A stretch of 64,000 nucleotides of DNA from an uncultured Chitinophagaceae bacterium (GTDB lineage Bacteria; Bacteroidota; Bacteroidia; Chitinophagales; Chitinophagaceae), in assembly GCA_903870685.1 (NCBI GenBank), contig CAIQDX010000102.1, positions 62,001-126,000 on the forward strand. Reading direction: 5' to 3'. Below, piece after piece: positions 35,608 through 42,491 of the stretch (positions are counted from its first letter, which is position 1; each line of letters opens with the position of its first letter). The notes below the pieces were generated by a model that saw only the letters and a list, made by a program, of their open reading frames with translations, had not been told where the DNA came from and did not search any database. The translations under genes were made by a program, and so were the position numbers.

Positions 35608-36507
35608 TTAATTCTTCGCTAAGACATAAATAACCGAACTGCATTTTTTGTGATCGCTGGATGTTTTCATGTTTGAAAGTAATCCAACTTTTAATGCTTT
35701 CACTAAATTTCCTTTTCCGTTTTTATATTGTTCGCTTAACATACTTACATAAAAACTATCGAACCACATTGGCTTGTAATCCTTTACTATAAAGCCTTTC
35801 GCCTTTGCGAGTATTTGAATACTATTTGGAGAGAAATGGTATAAATGTCTTGGCACATCATAAGCCGCCCAATTTTCCTTATGCGTTTCTGCATCGAAAC
35901 TCGTGTAGTTAGGAACAGCAATCAATAGTTTTCCATCAGGTTTTAAAATGCTGTGAAATTTTTCAAGGTACGCATGCAGATCATGCACATGTTCCAACAC
36001 ATGCCATAAAGTAATGGCATCGAACTGTTCATTATTTAATCGAAATAAATTTTCAGTTGATTGCAAATGCAGTGAGTATTTATTTAATGCAATTTGCCGA
36101 GCAGTTTCATCGGGTTCCAATCCAGTTACTTTCCATCCTGCTCTTTGCATGGCATTTGCGAATGCACCGGTGCCTGCGCCAACATCTAATAAAGTTGCTT
36201 TTTTTAATCCAGTTACTTCCTCAACTAATTTTCGTTTTGTTTGCAAAGTATAATTGCGAACCAAATGATACAAACGATTGATGAATCCTTTTTTTGTATC
36301 GGAATGAGAAACGTAAGCAGTGGATTTATAATATGCTCCAATATTTTCTGCATCGGGTACATCTTGCGTAAACTGCAAAGTGCAATCGTCGCAATACCAA
36401 ACTTCGAAAAATTCTTTACTTACTGTATGATCCTTTGCTGTGAAGGATTTGCGAATATAATTGCTTCCGCAACAAGGGCACTGTAGGTATGTGATATTTT
36501 GTCCCAT
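35608..36507 (-). CDS. class I SAM-dependent methyltransferase with N-terminal zinc ribbon
   Basis: A 299-aa protein. An N-terminal CPCC..CDDC cysteine set (about residues 10-47) forms a zinc ribbon, followed by a Rossmann methyltransferase domain with LLDVGAGTGAFANAM, VTGLEPDE, DAITLWHVLEHVHD and LKPDGKLLIAVPN. Such fusions are common in Bacteroidota for small-molecule or glycan targets. Start at ATG 36507 (MGQNITYLQC); upstream residues look like non-coding. It follows the HU-like gene by 26 nt. Confidence 0.85.
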   Translation of the reverse strand: MGQNITYLQCPCCGSNYIRKSFTAKDHTVSKEFFEVWYCDDCTLQFTQDVPDAENIGAYYKSTAYVSHSDTKKGFINRLYHLVRNYTLQTKRKLVEEVTGLKKATLLDVGAGTGAFANAMQRAGWKVTGLEPDETARQIALNKYSLHLQSTENLFRLNNEQFDAITLWHVLEHVHDLHAYLEKFHSILKPDGKLLIAVPNYTSFDAETHKENWAAYDVPRHLYHFSPNSIQILAKAKGFIVKDYKPMWFDSFYVSMLSEQYKNGKGNLVKALKVGLLSNMKTSSDHKKCSSVIYVLAKN

Positions 36508-36533: not shown

Positions 36534-37106
36534 CTAAATATAATAATACAATAAAGCGCCTAATCCCATTAATGCAAGAATGATCGCATACACCCACCAA
36601 TAATCTTCACTTTCACTCATTATAATTTTTTCTTCTTCAGGCGCAATAGCTTCTTGTGTAATTATTTTTGTTTCGCCCGAATCGTACACGCTAACAATAT
36701 TTGCATCAGCAGCAACAGAATTGTTTAACTGTATTTGTGGAAATAATGTATTGGTTTTTATTTCAGGATAAAAAATGAATTCTCCTGTTTCATTTTTTTT
36801 GAGTGTGCCGATACCCGGCAATGCCACAGCATTTTGAGCAGCAGTTTCCTGAATTCGTTTAGACAATTCATTGAACTGAGTTACCGCTTCAATACCATTT
36901 AATTTCATCTCTCTCGATAAATAATCATAAAATGCACGATCGTTAACAGGTGCATCAGCAGAAAAATTAATTGATTGAAATGGTGCGGTTAGTGTACGAT
37001 TAACAATGTCTAATCTTGCAGGAACAGATTCAACATAGAAATTACCCACGCCGGGCAATCCTGCTTTTTGATTCACAATAAGGTATTTGTAAAACAGTTC
37101 GTACAT
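36534..37106 (-). CDS. HU-CCDC81-like protein with C-terminal membrane anchor
   Basis: A 190-aa protein. The N-terminal 110 residues resemble the prokaryotic HU-CCDC81 domain pair, with LPGVGNFYVESVPA (17-30) and the repeat-like VALPGIGTLKKNETG near 94. A spacer and a final membrane helix (about 168-189, WWVYAIILALMGLGALLYYY) place the HU-like part in the cytosol. Homologues usually add a SPOR domain; none is present. The call rests on pattern recognition only. Third gene of an operon with TPR and barrel genes. Confidence 0.6.
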   Translation of the reverse strand: MYELFYKYLIVNQKAGLPGVGNFYVESVPARLDIVNRTLTAPFQSINFSADAPVNDRAFYDYLSREMKLNGIEAVTQFNELSKRIQETAAQNAVALPGIGTLKKNETGEFIFYPEIKTNTLFPQIQLNNSVAADANIVSVYDSGETKIITQEAIAPEEEKIIMSESEDYWWVYAIILALMGLGALLYYYI

Positions 37107-37118
37107 CCAAAAGTTCTT

Positions 37119-38870
37119 TTAGCGGAACGAATATACGATACCTCCGAGAACATTAAAACCTAATACTTTATATTGATCCCAACGTTGATATTTGCTATTC
37201 AATAAATTATTGAACTGTACCCAAATATTCAAATGTGGCAATACGCTAAACTCCGCTCCTGCATTGAGATCCATGGCAGCAGCTAATTTTTGTGTGAGCA
37301 TAGATTGATTGCGATATTGTGTTCCATCCCAGAAAAAAATATCTGATTTTAATTGTATTCCTTTCATCACTTTATAGCGAATTGAACCCGAAACTTCTAA
37401 AGGAAGTATTCCCCAGGGTTTATCGTATAATTGCTGATTTGTATATTGAGTATAATTTACAGCACTGCTGAAAGTTAGTTTTTCCTGTAATGTGTATCCT
37501 ATCTCACCATGTATGCGAATGGCCTGCAATTGTGGTTCGTATAAAACTATAAAGCTTTGTGTATTGTTTACTGTAACTACACCAGGATCATTTACAAATA
37601 AAGCCTGGTTATTTATTTTTAAGAAAGAAAGTCTTGCATTGAATGTAATATGCTTACCGGTACCACCTTTAAATCCTGCATATTGTTCCATGATCTTTGT
37701 GTTCATCAAAGAAGTTGGTTGTTGAATATATGGATTGAATGCAGCTAAAGATTGATAAGTATTTTTATTAAAATATCCTACCCATCCTGCTTGAAAAACA
37801 AAATGTTCATCTTTTAATTTTGCTTCAATAGTAACATTGGGTAACATAGAAAAAATGGTGTTATCCCATGATGGTCTGATACCTGCATTTAATTTAAAAT
37901 TGGGTGTATTGAATTGAACAGATGGATCGATATAAAATAAATTATTATTGATGGATGAAACTGTTGCAGTATGCAATGCAGTTACATCGGCAGTAAATTT
38001 TAGATCGAGTGCAAATATTTTCCCGATGGCTTTATTGATAGGTGCTTTTAAAATAAAATTTAATTCAGAGCCTGATTTATTATCGAAGAATGAATTCAGT
38101 TTTATTTGAGGATGATAAGTAATATCGAAATCCGTTGGTATCTTATTTTGCAATCCTAATTCAAATCCAACCTGATTAAATTGTTGCTGCAATTGTTCTT
38201 TCGATATTACCGGAAAAATAATCGATGGTGGATACCTGTATTGTGTGCTGTTATTAAAATAAATTCTTGATGTTAGTTCATTATTCACAGAATTAAAAAC
38301 ACCTAATCCTTCAACACCAGCTTTAGTAAATTCCTGAAAAGGGATATCACCTTTTGATGAAGTATAATTTCCGCGAAGATTAATGATTGATTTTTTTCCA
38401 TCACCAAAAGCCAGAGCAGCTTCTAAAAATGGTGTTGAATAATTACCAAAACCTGCTTTGATATATTGATCGTTCTCCCAATGAAATGCCGTGTCAATCG
38501 ACAGTTCAAGTGGTTTGATTGAAACTGGTTGATATGAAAAAAATAAATTTTGAGAAGGAATATTATAAGTTAAAGGAATTTTTGTTGAATCAATTATTGG
38601 CGTAGCAGCTGTAAAATTTATTTTAGCAGCATTACGTAACGACGGTTTAAAAACCGAAGTAACCATTACAACTTTTGTTGGAGTAGAATCGCTTGAAGGC
38701 ACAACTTCTGTTGCATGGATTGTTGTAACAGGATTAACTGCAGCGGCTTTTTTTGCAACAACTTTTTTGGTGGCAGTCTTTTTCTTTTTTGTTTTATGCT
38801 GTGCATGAACAGCATAAAAAGGAATAATAATTGCCAGCAAAAAAATCAATATTTTTTTATGATTGTTCAT
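37119..38870 (-). CDS. outer-membrane beta-barrel protein (TonB-receptor-like barrel without plug)
   Basis: A 583-aa exported protein with a signal peptide (1-24, ending VHAQ) and a basic, Ala/Lys-rich low-complexity stretch (KTKKKKTATKKVVAKK). The rest is a long series of alternating beta strands such as IHGEIGYTLQEKLTFSSAVN and KGIQLKSDIFFWDG, ending in an aromatic strand (GGIVYSFR). No plug domain visible. Gap to TPR gene is 13 nt, to HU gene 12 nt. Confidence 0.8.
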   Translation of the reverse strand: MNNHKKILIFLLAIIIPFYAVHAQHKTKKKKTATKKVVAKKAAAVNPVTTIHATEVVPSSDSTPTKVVMVTSVFKPSLRNAAKINFTAATPIIDSTKIPLTYNIPSQNLFFSYQPVSIKPLELSIDTAFHWENDQYIKAGFGNYSTPFLEAALAFGDGKKSIINLRGNYTSSKGDIPFQEFTKAGVEGLGVFNSVNNELTSRIYFNNSTQYRYPPSIIFPVISKEQLQQQFNQVGFELGLQNKIPTDFDITYHPQIKLNSFFDNKSGSELNFILKAPINKAIGKIFALDLKFTADVTALHTATVSSINNNLFYIDPSVQFNTPNFKLNAGIRPSWDNTIFSMLPNVTIEAKLKDEHFVFQAGWVGYFNKNTYQSLAAFNPYIQQPTSLMNTKIMEQYAGFKGGTGKHITFNARLSFLKINNQALFVNDPGVVTVNNTQSFIVLYEPQLQAIRIHGEIGYTLQEKLTFSSAVNYTQYTNQQLYDKPWGILPLEVSGSIRYKVMKGIQLKSDIFFWDGTQYRNQSMLTQKLAAAMDLNAGAEFSVLPHLNIWVQFNNLLNSKYQRWDQYKVLGFNVLGGIVYSFR

Positions 38871-38883
38871 GTACTTTTTCGCT

Positions 38884-41800
38884 TTACTGTTGATCTACTT
38901 TATTTGTCTTATTTTTTTCTGCAATCACCTTATCCAACTTTTGTTGGGCTTCATTTTTTAATTCAGCGATTGTCGCATTTTCAACAACACTTTTAAATGT
39001 TGCTTCAGCATTAAATAAATCATTCTGTTTAAAATAAACATCACCCAATAAAATATAACTTTTAGTCACCCAATTCTCGTAAGAACCATATTTCTTTATT
39101 ACTTCAAATCCTGCTTTCTCTGCTTCAGCTAATTTATTTTGTTGCAATAAAATAGAAGCAACATTATATTGTGCTTCTGCGCTGAATTCGGATTTACCCA
39201 AAACAATCACTTGTTTGTAAGCAATCGATGCTTCATCTAATTTATTTTCTGTTTGATATTTTTTAGCAACCATCATGTTTGCCATCATCCTATCGTCGGT
39301 TGCTGTTCCTTTTTCTGCTAACAGATCCTGCGCATTATCGAATGCTTCATTCCATTGTTGTAATTTGAATTGACAGCGCAATAATCCACGCATTGCTTCT
39401 AACTTATTTTCTTGTTGTGTAGCCAATGATTTTAATAAAGCAAAATATTTTTCAGCATTATTAAAATCTTTCAGATCGAAATAATATATCCGAGCCGATT
39501 GCAATGCACTTCTTTCAGCAAATTTATTTGGAGACCTTGCTGCTACAGCATTATAGAACGGTAATGCAGCATTGAAATCTTTATTAGTGATATTAATTTC
39601 TGCAGAAAAATAATTAGCTTCTACTGCGTATTTCCCATCAGAAAATTTAGAAAGATATTCAGCGTAGCCATGCTTTGCATTTGCAAAATCTTTTGCATCA
39701 TAACGTATTTGTGCTGCATGAAATGTAAGTGAATCTTCTTCGCTGTAAGTAACCGGTTTACCACTTTGTTTCATGAAAGCAATAAAGTCGGCAGGTTTTT
39801 GATTGGCTATAAAAATATTGCGGATATATTCAATTGCTTCATCACTTTCCTGCGAATCCGGATACTTGGCAACTAGCTCAGTAAAACTTTTCAGCGATTC
39901 GTCATTCTTATTCAAATTAAAATAGGCAACACCGGATTTTAAATAAGCCTGCGGCCAAAGCGCATTTGCATTTTTGTCTTTCAAAATAAAATTCAATGAA
40001 GGAATTGCTTCTTCATATTTTTCCTGGGCAAGAAAAGTATTGGCAATTTCTAAATTTGCTTCAGGTATTAATGTCGAATGCGGATAATGTTTTGATATAT
40101 TTTGAAGCAGAGATATCTTCTCATTATTTTTATTGGAAGCACCTGCAATAATTGCTTCCTGATACAAAGCATAATCGGATGCTTTGCCATTTTGACTGAT
40201 CACAATTTCATACATCATCAATGCCTGTTTGTAATTTTTATTCATAAAATAACAATCAGCCGACCTTACATAAGCATCTTGTTCCAATGCTGAAGATGTG
40301 TAATTAATTATTTTTGAAACTTGTTGAAAATAAGAAAGCGCAGTGTTGTAATCTTCTTTCTTTAATAAACAATAAGCCAAATTATATTTTGCATTACTAA
40401 TATTTACTTCACCATTAACCTGTGGATTTTTTAAGTAGTTGGCGAAATAATTTATGGCCTCATCAATATTTCCATTGCGATAAGAAATTTCTCCTTTCCA
40501 GAAATAAACCAATTGCAAAAAATTATTATTGAACGGAACTTTAAAAATTTTTGAAAACAATTCATCAGCCTGATCGATATGCTGATCATTAATTAACTCT
40601 ACTGCCCTTCCATATAAAATTCTGGGGTATATTTTTTTGATGACCTCACTCTGCGAATGTAAACTTTCGAACAATATCAATGCTTCTTTATAGTTGCTTG
40701 TATTGGCAAGAACACTAACTTCTAATTCCTTTGCATCCTGCATGTACAAAGAGTTTGAGTAAGTAGCGATAAAGCTTTGTAATTCACGCAATGCAATATC
40801 CAGATAACCTAATTCATAACTTAATTTGGCATAACTGAATTGTGATATCTCCTTTTGAGTTGGATTACTGTTATTAGATTCGCAAAACAAAAAAGCATTT
40901 CTTGCATTTACTTTTTGATCGGTTTTTAAATAGGCATTCGCCAACAAGTACATACTATTTTGTGCTAATGAATCTTCTTTACCACCAATTTGTTTAAAGC
41001 CTTCAATACTTTTATTCCAGTTGTTAGCTGCATAATAACAATAAGAAAGTTCGTACATATCTTCTCTTGTTATTTTGTCGGTTTTTTTTGAATATTCTTC
41101 CAAATAAGGCTGTGCATGTACGTAATCTTTTTTATCAAAATATAAATGACCGACCAATTGTTTTAATTGCAAATCATAATATTGATTTCCGCCTTTTAAA
41201 GATTTTTCAGCGAAGAATAATGCTTTATCATGTTCTCCCTGAAAATAATAAATCTCAGAAATGTAAAAAGGAACAATGTTTTTATAATCAGTACTAGTGA
41301 TTGCGATATTAAATGCTTTTAAAGCTTCGTTATAATTTTTTTCTGAGAAAGAAATAAATCCATAATAATAATTTGCATCAACATAATTTGAATCTCTTGG
41401 CATTTGTCGAACCACATCCAACAGAGGTTTTGCTTCTGAGAATTGTTGTAATGCAAAATGAGAATATCCCTTGTGGAACTTCATTTCAGCAATCTCGCTG
41501 TTATTCAAATTCTCAATTCCGGCTTTTGTGTAATAAATAATAGCATTGCCGAAATCGTTTTTTCTGAAATAATATTCAGCCAAATAATAACTTGCCATTT
41601 GCACATGCGGTGCATGATGTTCGAGATCGATGAATCGTTTAGCCAACGGTTCTGCAGTAGCATCATTCAATTTTAATCCGCAAATGATATAATAATATTT
41701 TGATTCGGTTTGAATGGTTACCGGCAAATTTGTATTTGTGTTTTCATTTGCATACAAATATTTAAATACAGGATAAGCCAAACTGTATTGTTCTTTCTGA

Positions 41801-41931
41801 AACAATTCTTTGGCCGATTTAAAAGTGGCATCAGGGTCATCATTCATTTTTGTGTACTGAGCAAAAGTTGAACTCATCAAACAACAAAAACTAATGGCGG
41901 CAAATATTTTAAGAGGATTATACATAGGCAT
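38884..41931 (-). CDS. large exported TPR-repeat protein
   Basis: A 1015-aa protein with a signal peptide (1-24, MSSTFAQ end) followed by more than a dozen TPR-like units, for example ELFQKEQYSLAYPVFKYLYA, YYGFISFSEKNYNEALKAFN and ALQSARIYYFDLKDFNNAEK. TPR arrays in this phylum serve as periplasmic scaffolds for outer-membrane assembly. It is first in the operon with the barrel (13 nt), HU-like (12 nt) and methyltransferase (26 nt) genes, so it is likely to act with the barrel protein (inference). Confidence 0.85.
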   Translation of the reverse strand: MPMYNPLKIFAAISFCCLMSSTFAQYTKMNDDPDATFKSAKELFQKEQYSLAYPVFKYLYANENTNTNLPVTIQTESKYYYIICGLKLNDATAEPLAKRFIDLEHHAPHVQMASYYLAEYYFRKNDFGNAIIYYTKAGIENLNNSEIAEMKFHKGYSHFALQQFSEAKPLLDVVRQMPRDSNYVDANYYYGFISFSEKNYNEALKAFNIAITSTDYKNIVPFYISEIYYFQGEHDKALFFAEKSLKGGNQYYDLQLKQLVGHLYFDKKDYVHAQPYLEEYSKKTDKITREDMYELSYCYYAANNWNKSIEGFKQIGGKEDSLAQNSMYLLANAYLKTDQKVNARNAFLFCESNNSNPTQKEISQFSYAKLSYELGYLDIALRELQSFIATYSNSLYMQDAKELEVSVLANTSNYKEALILFESLHSQSEVIKKIYPRILYGRAVELINDQHIDQADELFSKIFKVPFNNNFLQLVYFWKGEISYRNGNIDEAINYFANYLKNPQVNGEVNISNAKYNLAYCLLKKEDYNTALSYFQQVSKIINYTSSALEQDAYVRSADCYFMNKNYKQALMMYEIVISQNGKASDYALYQEAIIAGASNKNNEKISLLQNISKHYPHSTLIPEANLEIANTFLAQEKYEEAIPSLNFILKDKNANALWPQAYLKSGVAYFNLNKNDESLKSFTELVAKYPDSQESDEAIEYIRNIFIANQKPADFIAFMKQSGKPVTYSEEDSLTFHAAQIRYDAKDFANAKHGYAEYLSKFSDGKYAVEANYFSAEINITNKDFNAALPFYNAVAARSPNKFAERSALQSARIYYFDLKDFNNAEKYFALLKSLATQQENKLEAMRGLLRCQFKLQQWNEAFDNAQDLLAEKGTATDDRMMANMMVAKKYQTENKLDEASIAYKQVIVLGKSEFSAEAQYNVASILLQQNKLAEAEKAGFEVIKKYGSYENWVTKSYILLGDVYFKQNDLFNAEATFKSVVENATIAELKNEAQQKLDKVIAEKNKTNKVDQQ

Positions 41932-42080: not shown

Positions 42081-42491
42081 ATGTTCGAGAGTTCCACAAA
42101 TGTTAGAGTAAGATATGCCGAAACCGATCAAATGGATGTAGTGTATCATGGTAACTATGCACAATTTTGTGAAGTAGGCAGAGCCGAAAGTATACGCAGC
42201 TTGGGTTTTACTTATAAAGACATGGAAAAGATGGGCGTGATAATGCCGATTGTTGAATTGCATTTAAAATTCTTGCGACCTGCGCATTACGACGATCTAC
42301 TAACGGTAAAAACAATTTTAAAAGAACTACCTAACGATCATCGAATAGAATTTCATCACGAAGTTTATAATGAAGTTGGCAAATTATTAACGGTGGGCAG
42401 AGTTGTTTTGTATTTCATCAATGCTAAAACAAAAGAGAAGACATTAATGCCTTCTCAATTATTTAATAGTTTACAAGCTTATTTTAATTAA
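42081..42491 (+). CDS. acyl-CoA thioesterase of the YbgC/4HBT family
   Basis: A 136-aa hot-dog-fold protein with VRYAETDQMDVVYHGNYAQF at 8-27 (the TDxMxxVYHxNY family motif, with catalytic Asp) and EVGRAESIRSLG. Likely hydrolyses acyl-CoA thioesters. Its stop shares TTAA with the convergent stop of the DUF6526 gene. Confidence 0.88.
   Translation: MFESSTNVRVRYAETDQMDVVYHGNYAQFCEVGRAESIRSLGFTYKDMEKMGVIMPIVELHLKFLRPAHYDDLLTVKTILKELPNDHRIEFHHEVYNEVGKLLTVGRVVLYFINAKTKEKTLMPSQLFNSLQAYFN

Follow-up and report, generated by a model that had tools for sequence, protein, structure and literature searches.

A tetratricopeptide repeat protein, a plug-less barrel and a tandem-HU membrane protein of Bacteroidota as candidate parts of a Tol-Pal-like envelope machine

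Introduction

Among the described systems closest to the locus treated here is Tol-Pal of Escherichia coli, which links inner and outer membrane when the cell divides and is encoded in the order ybgC-tolQ-tolR-tolA-tolB-pal-cpoB. We focus on three consecutive genes in a stretch of 64,000 nucleotides (nt), referred to as the window, from an uncultured Chitinophagaceae bacterium (assembly GCA_903870685.1, contig CAIQDX010000102.1, positions 62,001 to 126,000). They encode a periplasmic protein built of tetratricopeptide repeats (TPR), a barrel of the outer membrane, and a protein that combines two HU domains with a membrane anchor. The locus resembles Tol-Pal in the type of motor, which is found in cis in relatives and in trans in the bacterium's own genome, in the repeats of its TPR protein, which may be CpoB/YbgF-like, and in a neighboring YbgC-type thioesterase. 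It differs from Tol-Pal in its plug-less barrel, in its protein with HU domains, a transmembrane (TM) helix and, in other lineages, a SPOR domain, in the unlinked position of its own motor, and in that no TolB was found in its genome. Lacking TolB, the set is not Tol-Pal by membership and at most works like it. Our tentative reading, which we consider possible rather than probable, is that the trio forms part of a proton-driven, Tol-Pal-like trans-envelope machine of Bacteroidota joining the outer membrane, the wall and the inner membrane.

The HU protein has described relatives in the CCDC81-like prokaryotic HU families HU-CCDC81_bac_1 and HU-CCDC81_bac_2 (PF18174 and PF18175). Like them, it begins with a tandem HU pair; unlike them, it scores under both family cut-offs, lacks SPOR and is tail-anchored. 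A different answer to the phylum's missing Tol-Pal is a PorE-based tether between outer membrane and peptidoglycan, proposed for Bacteroidetes (PMC12204202). PorE is one fused lipoprotein with ties to the type IX secretion system (T9SS), whereas the locus in the window is a multi-gene set with its own motor in some lineages. In the literature without preprints, no paper was found on HU-CCDC81, or on an HU domain combined with a SPOR domain in Bacteroidetes, and among the matches listed none describes the locus in its title or at the start of its abstract.

Conservation of the Locus and Its Gene Context

Calling of open reading frames (ORFs) confirmed the three genes at 36534-41931 on the reverse strand, with gaps of 13 nt between TPR and barrel genes and 12 nt between barrel and HU genes, as they had been described in an earlier note made from the letters of the window alone. 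The genome that holds them comprises 3.18 Mb in 147 contigs. Its nearest named relatives, among the best 80 of 552 loci, are Chitinophagaceae such as Hydrotalea and Sediminibacterium, and these 80 loci are near relatives, mostly labeled Chitinophagaceae, Sediminibacterium or unclassified Bacteroidota.

The barrel family is nearly universal in the class. A profile search matched it in 143 of 149 Bacteroidia genomes, usually with one strong match per genome; 135 of the matches reach E < 1e-30, and of the eight weak ones (E > 1e-30) four, in family f77, are backed by an adjacent HU gene. To describe the gene context, 86 regions of other families and classes were compared, 34 chosen from 198 genomes of the phylum and 52 (about one per family) from the 149 genomes of the class. 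A barrel ORF was present in 85 of them, with L199 counted as a miss under the longest-ORF rule, and the profiles for the operon genes, FtsE and GyrB derive from a few of the loci on which they were then used. The TPR gene lies at most two genes upstream of the barrel in 73 of the 85 loci. Outside the family, the fullest operon has the order TPR, barrel, HU-TM-SPOR, TolQ/ExbB, TolR/ExbD, TolA/TonB-like. An ExbB gene occurs within four genes downstream of the barrel in 20 of the 85 loci, the set of ExbB, ExbD and TonB in 18, and a third gene of HU or SPOR type together with ExbB in 17. Barrel loci that bear the motor span ten families and at least two classes. Pfam confirmed MotA_ExbB, ExbD and TonB_C on the motor genes; the TonB_C match exceeds the cut-off in L093 and falls short of it in L076.

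The gene that follows the barrel matches the HU or the HU-SPOR profile in 26 of the 85 loci, three of them (L088, L089 and L101) by the TM-SPOR part only. Its commonest form is HU-TM-SPOR, next to TM-SPOR without a detectable HU domain in those three loci and HU-TM without SPOR in Chitinophagaceae. Of 29 third-gene proteins that come from other families and classes, 26 carry a SPOR match (E ≤ 0.05), which agrees with the note's remark that related proteins usually end in this domain. In 23 of the 86 regions an FtsE-like ABC ATPase gene stands divergently upstream of the TPR gene, adjoining it in 22, and FtsE was the best NCBIfam model for the 11 of these 23 proteins that were scanned. This context, Tol/Exb motor genes in some relatives and an ftsE-like gene in others, is invisible from the sequence of the window. 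Only in L085 (7213-8367) and L106 (2694-3908) is the barrel gene followed by one for a protein with an OmpA-family domain. In L192 (7873-10277), the HU-SPOR profile picks up two consecutive genes behind the barrel, of which the second looks by eye like SPOR-like repeats.

Within Chitinophagaceae, a search with a single sequence found the HU protein in 45 of 60 genomes. Among the 34 short-HU loci fetched, the barrel lies directly before HU in 31 and the full trio is together in 29; of the remaining five, L036 and L041 are cut by contig ends, and L043, L053 and L065 have no barrel beside HU. Longer HU proteins (n = 6) were found in the same operon position in three cases and elsewhere in three. 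In L069, L070 and L072 an unlinked protein of HU-CCDC81 type has no barrel neighbors, and in L069 it adjoins a Cupin_5 gene. Class-wide, coordinates compared by eye show HU in direct succession to the barrel in at least 28 of the 149 genomes, the bacterium's own included. Elsewhere in the class the HU protein has about 300-430 amino acids (aa) and is usually encoded away from the barrel; among the 138 HU matches, eight have E > 1e-8 and, being this weak, may come from ordinary HU. Linkage of the three genes in relatives, which the note had named as a check, is strong within the family.

The Three Proteins

Both envelope proteins are as the note had drawn them, a 1015-aa protein with TPR throughout and a 583-aa protein that takes the form of an outer-membrane beta-barrel in its structure model. 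The repeats run along the whole TPR protein (Pfam TPR families, E down to 8.3e-30), which starts with a signal peptide; where this is likely cleaved stands a glutamine (Q25) that is nearly invariant in an alignment of 32 sequences with a mean column identity of 52%. Its top NCBIfam model is tol_pal_ybgF (TIGR02795), with 142.7 bits against a cut-off of 90.1, a score that is the sum over eight stretches of the 1015 aa. It shares 27.9% identity with E. coli CpoB over 104 aligned positions, and CpoB/YbgF is among the natural bacterial solved structures that it matches. Caution is needed with such matches, as long TPR proteins match many models of the CpoB/YbgF kind; stretches of this one also resemble BamD and LapB. 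Against PorW/SprE (NF052312) it scores 63.7 bits, under the cut-off of 250.

The barrel shares its fold with the TonB-dependent transporters BtuB and FhuA, on whose barrels the model superposes with a Z-score (Z) of about 22 over about 400 residues and a root-mean-square deviation (rmsd) of 3.1-3.7. The best structural match of the predicted model is BtuB 3m8b (Z 22.3, 396 aligned residues, rmsd 3.6). It differs from these transporters in having no plug domain in the model. A conserved, mostly disordered N-terminal tail is found instead: residues 24-134 are mostly of low confidence and without secondary structure, with a confidence score pLDDT of 29-60 in the blocks of ten from residue 21 to 130, and the barrel is confidently modeled from about residue 135. 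The alignment consensus of the tail holds the segments FKPxLxxAxKI and LxYxIP. No Pfam family matched the protein at E ≤ 1, and NCBIfam gave only a sub-threshold chance match. Judged by the model, this is a transporter-type fold without a plug and so not a TonB-dependent transporter.

For the third protein, the note had proposed an HU-like domain. Over residues 1-110, where pLDDT is 85-94 in each block of ten, the predicted fold is indeed that of HU, with two domains in tandem where the note had counted one. Both stay below the curated Pfam cut-offs, and the protein is therefore treated as a divergent relative of PF18174 and PF18175 and not as a member. Some relatives exceed one of the cut-offs (L065 with 43.2 bits, L068 with 34.1), and HU-CCDC81_bac_1 and HU-CCDC81_bac_2 are matched at E ≤ 0.05 by 26 and 34 of 35 members of the short-HU family, respectively. 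NCBIfam offered no name for the protein, a plasmid search with it returned no match, and Foldseek gave nothing for its model at E ≤ 0.001 (best 6.4e-3, 8snb_1K). The class-wide HU profile matches IHF and HU chains with E down to 5.8e-8, and in structural alignment of the model the second domain (residues 54-121) pairs with 1huu_C at Z 6.7. Both domains together align with a sea urchin sperm doublet-microtubule protein (8snb_1K, Z 7.0) and with a Mycoplasma mobile G1-ATPase subunit (9io5_T, Z 6.9), the alignments spanning model residues 1-120 or 1-123. These two proteins have a tandem-HU-like part and belong to motor and cytoskeletal assemblies that are not DNA-based, but the Z-scores are modest and tied with ordinary HU, and the likeness is one of fold.

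The protein stops after its membrane helix, as the note had read it, since the 19-residue hydrophobic core at 172-190 runs to the stop codon. SPOR is not among the families listed at E ≤ 0.05 for the 35 short Chitinophagaceae HU proteins. Where the helix is followed by 12 or more residues (19 proteins), 42 lysines and arginines flank it on the N-side and 16 on the other; over all 35 proteins the numbers are 74 and 21, many of these having little or nothing behind the helix. This preference of positive residues for the N-side fits a cytosolic HU pair tethered by the last helix, again in agreement with the note.

HU and IHF proteins that bind DNA are basic and carry a long DNA-binding beta-arm. 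The HU pair has an isoelectric point (pI) of 5.4 and a net charge of -1.5, whereas pI is 9.9 and 10.5 in the two ordinary HU proteins that the genome also encodes. Its pI is below 7 in 32 of the 35 family members and basic (8.8-9.5) in the other three. The arm between the last strands is absent from the pair in the alignment and present in both ordinary HU proteins. Together, acidity and missing arm make it unlikely, as far as sequence can tell, that the pair binds DNA and hence that it links the chromosome to the envelope. The note had suggested such a link, and this part of it has lost ground to its own alternative, a co-opted HU fold, which is supported. As some lineages keep TM-SPOR without a detectable HU domain, whatever the locus does in all lineages cannot be DNA binding.

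Motor Genes in the Own Genome and the Search for TolB

The genome holds two ExbB genes, one of them on contig C39 with ExbD beside it. On the profile of the operon ExbB, the C39 protein reaches 275 bits and the genome's other ExbB 110. In the ExbB tree it groups inside the operon-type ExbB of genomes of the same class, with proteins of families f3 and f9 (support 100/97); the tree is one of long branches and does not tell TolQ from ExbB. A TolA/TonB-like protein of the operon type is encoded on contig C143 (E 2.9e-20, 105 bits). The motor parts are thus present but dispersed. TolB, sought as TolB_N (PF04052), was not found in the own genome and is over the cut-off in 2 of the 149 class genomes.

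The Proposed Machine and Its Alternatives

In its fullest form, the machine would have six parts: the TPR scaffold, the plug-less barrel, the tandem-HU inner-membrane protein (usually with SPOR), and a proton motor of TolQ/ExbB, TolR/ExbD and TolA/TonB type. The motor would pull or release the unit of barrel and TPR protein through the periplasm. The HU-TM(-SPOR) protein would mark the site, with SPOR, where present, expected to bind septal peptidoglycan, and the HU pair would bind a cytosolic protein of the division ring or cytoskeleton and not DNA. The likely result would be outer-membrane constriction and envelope integrity at division. Chitinophagaceae would use a variant with a short HU protein without SPOR and, in the own genome, with motor genes elsewhere. 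Physical contacts, transmission of force, septal location and the partner of the HU pair are what we infer here. The observed basis is the gene order, its conservation, the modeled folds, the acidity of the HU pair, its missing DNA arm and the motor type in the own genome. SPOR, the CpoB matches of the TPR protein, YbgC and, in other lineages, the ftsE-like neighbor all point to division. The OmpA-domain neighbors of the barrel in L085 and L106, the spread of the barrel through the class and the rarity of TolB_N there also speak for the machine. In a more specific version, the trio would be the counterpart of Tol-Pal that Bacteroidota have been missing, a proton-driven machine of outer-membrane constriction that is built on the plug-less barrel and the giant TPR protein and is positioned by an inner-membrane protein whose tandem-HU head has turned to protein binding; this we regard as doubtful. 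The TPR-barrel pair is nearly universal and, in several families, recurs beside a Tol/Ton motor and a SPOR protein, which makes it a concrete candidate open to testing. If the proposal is true, bacteria would also provide an example of an HU fold used in an envelope machine as a head that binds proteins.

Several observations weigh against the proposed machine. In the own genome the motor genes are unlinked to the trio, and the operon ExbB is not clearly nearer to E. coli TolQ than to ExbB. ExbB, ExbD and TonB also serve nutrient uptake, so that adjacency of the motor alone does not indicate Tol. The phylum is not free of Tol-Pal parts either, since the control, the genome of Bacteroides ihuae, has a TolB_N match too, and Cytophaga hutchinsonii is reported to have a Pal homologue (PMC5891637). 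Selection of the 86 regions was centered on barrel matches and not random. Of 85 loci, 59 have a gene behind the barrel that fits neither of the two profiles, HU and HU-SPOR. Loci of family f22, which belongs to another class, have no TPR match upstream of the barrel. As for ftsE, the 11 scanned proteins score 222-250 bits, under the FtsE cut-off of 264.85, and no region of the 86 has the FtsE-like gene together with a motor or an HU-type third gene. Directly behind the barrel, 12 of 85 loci (L195 and L228 included) carry a GyrB-like gene, two of which were confirmed as DNA gyrase subunit B. With a housekeeping gyrB in this place and ftsE never in the company of motor or HU-type genes, ftsE may be a chance neighbor kept by descent.

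The information can also be read in other ways. An outer-membrane biogenesis or transport complex, in which lipid, polysaccharide or protein passes through the barrel as its dedicated channel, served by a TPR chaperone and in some lineages by its own Ton motor, would suit a plug-less transporter-type barrel that in relatives has a Ton/Tol-type motor in cis, the BamD- and LapB-like stretches of the TPR protein, and a constant TPR-barrel core around which the remainder varies. It leaves SPOR and HU in the third gene unexplained, however, and the barrel has no plug for a TonB-driven gate; we think this unlikely, while giving it some weight. An ordinary TonB system for nutrient uptake, standing by chance beside unrelated genes, draws on the same transporter-type fold and on the ExbB-ExbD-TonB genes of some loci. 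It is very improbable for a barrel that has no plug, is near-universal with usually one strong match per genome, and keeps its gene order across classes.

A role as an accessory of type IX secretion or of the gliding system, with the large TPR protein as periplasmic link, would agree with the weak resemblance to PorW/SprE and with the spread of SprA, which was found in as many class genomes as the barrel (143 of 149 each). Equal counts mean that co-occurrence alone does not separate the two readings, and it is the exceptions that argue against a T9SS role. Five of the six class genomes without SprA (G061, G281, G305, G317 and G375) retain matches to barrel and HU, the sixth being a genome of 0.5 Mb with neither, and conversely five of the six genomes without a barrel match have SprA. 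We accordingly rate this role as distinctly unlikely. A tether between chromosome and envelope, with the HU pair on DNA and the membrane helix keeping the chromosome near the envelope machine, is improbable too. In its favor are the true HU fold, seen in the model and in the profile match to IHF and HU chains, the anchored, cytosolic topology, the three family members with a basic pair, and a paper on the HU/IHF clade that names chromosome partitioning in its title (Burroughs et al., 2017, as cited in PMC5906684 and PMC12218091). Against it stand the acidity of the pair in nearly all family members, the missing arm, and the lineages in which TM-SPOR is retained and HU goes undetected.

Coordinates and Neighboring Genes

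The positions of the trio, of its protein parts and of the adjoining genes are collected in Table 1. The methyltransferase gene continues the run on the same strand and is probably its fourth gene; a homologue lies directly downstream of HU in 21 of the 34 short-HU loci of relatives. A homologue of the divergent thioesterase is found inside the fetched region in 20 of the 34.

Table 1. Features of the locus, with positions in the window
Feature	Position	Strand	Description
TPR gene	38884..41931	-	1015 aa, first of the run; periplasmic TPR protein with signal peptide
Barrel gene	37119..38870	-	583 aa, second of the run; outer-membrane barrel
Barrel protein, N-terminal periplasmic tail (residues 24-134)	38469..38801	-	Mostly low confidence; occupies the place of the transporter plug
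Barrel protein, TonB-dependent-transporter-type barrel (residues 135-583)	37122..38468	-	From structure model and fold alignment
Third gene	36534..37106	-	190 aa; tandem-HU, tail-anchored protein
HU domain 1 (residues 1-56)	36939..37106	-	HU-CCDC81_bac_1 type; E 2e-4, 21.6 bits, under cut-off 26
HU domain 2 (residues 57-120)	36747..36938	-	HU-CCDC81_bac_2 type; E 4.2e-5, 23.8 bits, under cut-off 35; without long DNA-binding arm
Acidic linker (residues 121-169)	36600..36746	-	pI 4.05; largely disordered, pLDDT < 50 for residues 131-163
C-terminal membrane helix (residues 170-190)	36537..36599	-	Without periplasmic tail, without SPOR
Methyltransf_23-family methyltransferase	35608..36507	-	Directly 3' of the HU gene
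YbgC/FadM-family thioesterase	42081..42491	+	Divergent from the TPR gene; TIGR00051, 93.2 bits, cut-off 68.7

Two observations lie further from the trio. In the f22 loci L093, L094, L098, L100 and L102, the run before the barrel consists of genes for about 847, 235 and 342 aa. At 46-1531 on the reverse strand, 35-40 kb from the trio in the window, are genes of the aspartate/ornithine carbamoyltransferase and phosphoribosyltransferase families, which we take to be pyrB- and pyrR-like; their homologues in L076-L078 stand immediately upstream of the six-gene operon that runs from TPR to TonB.

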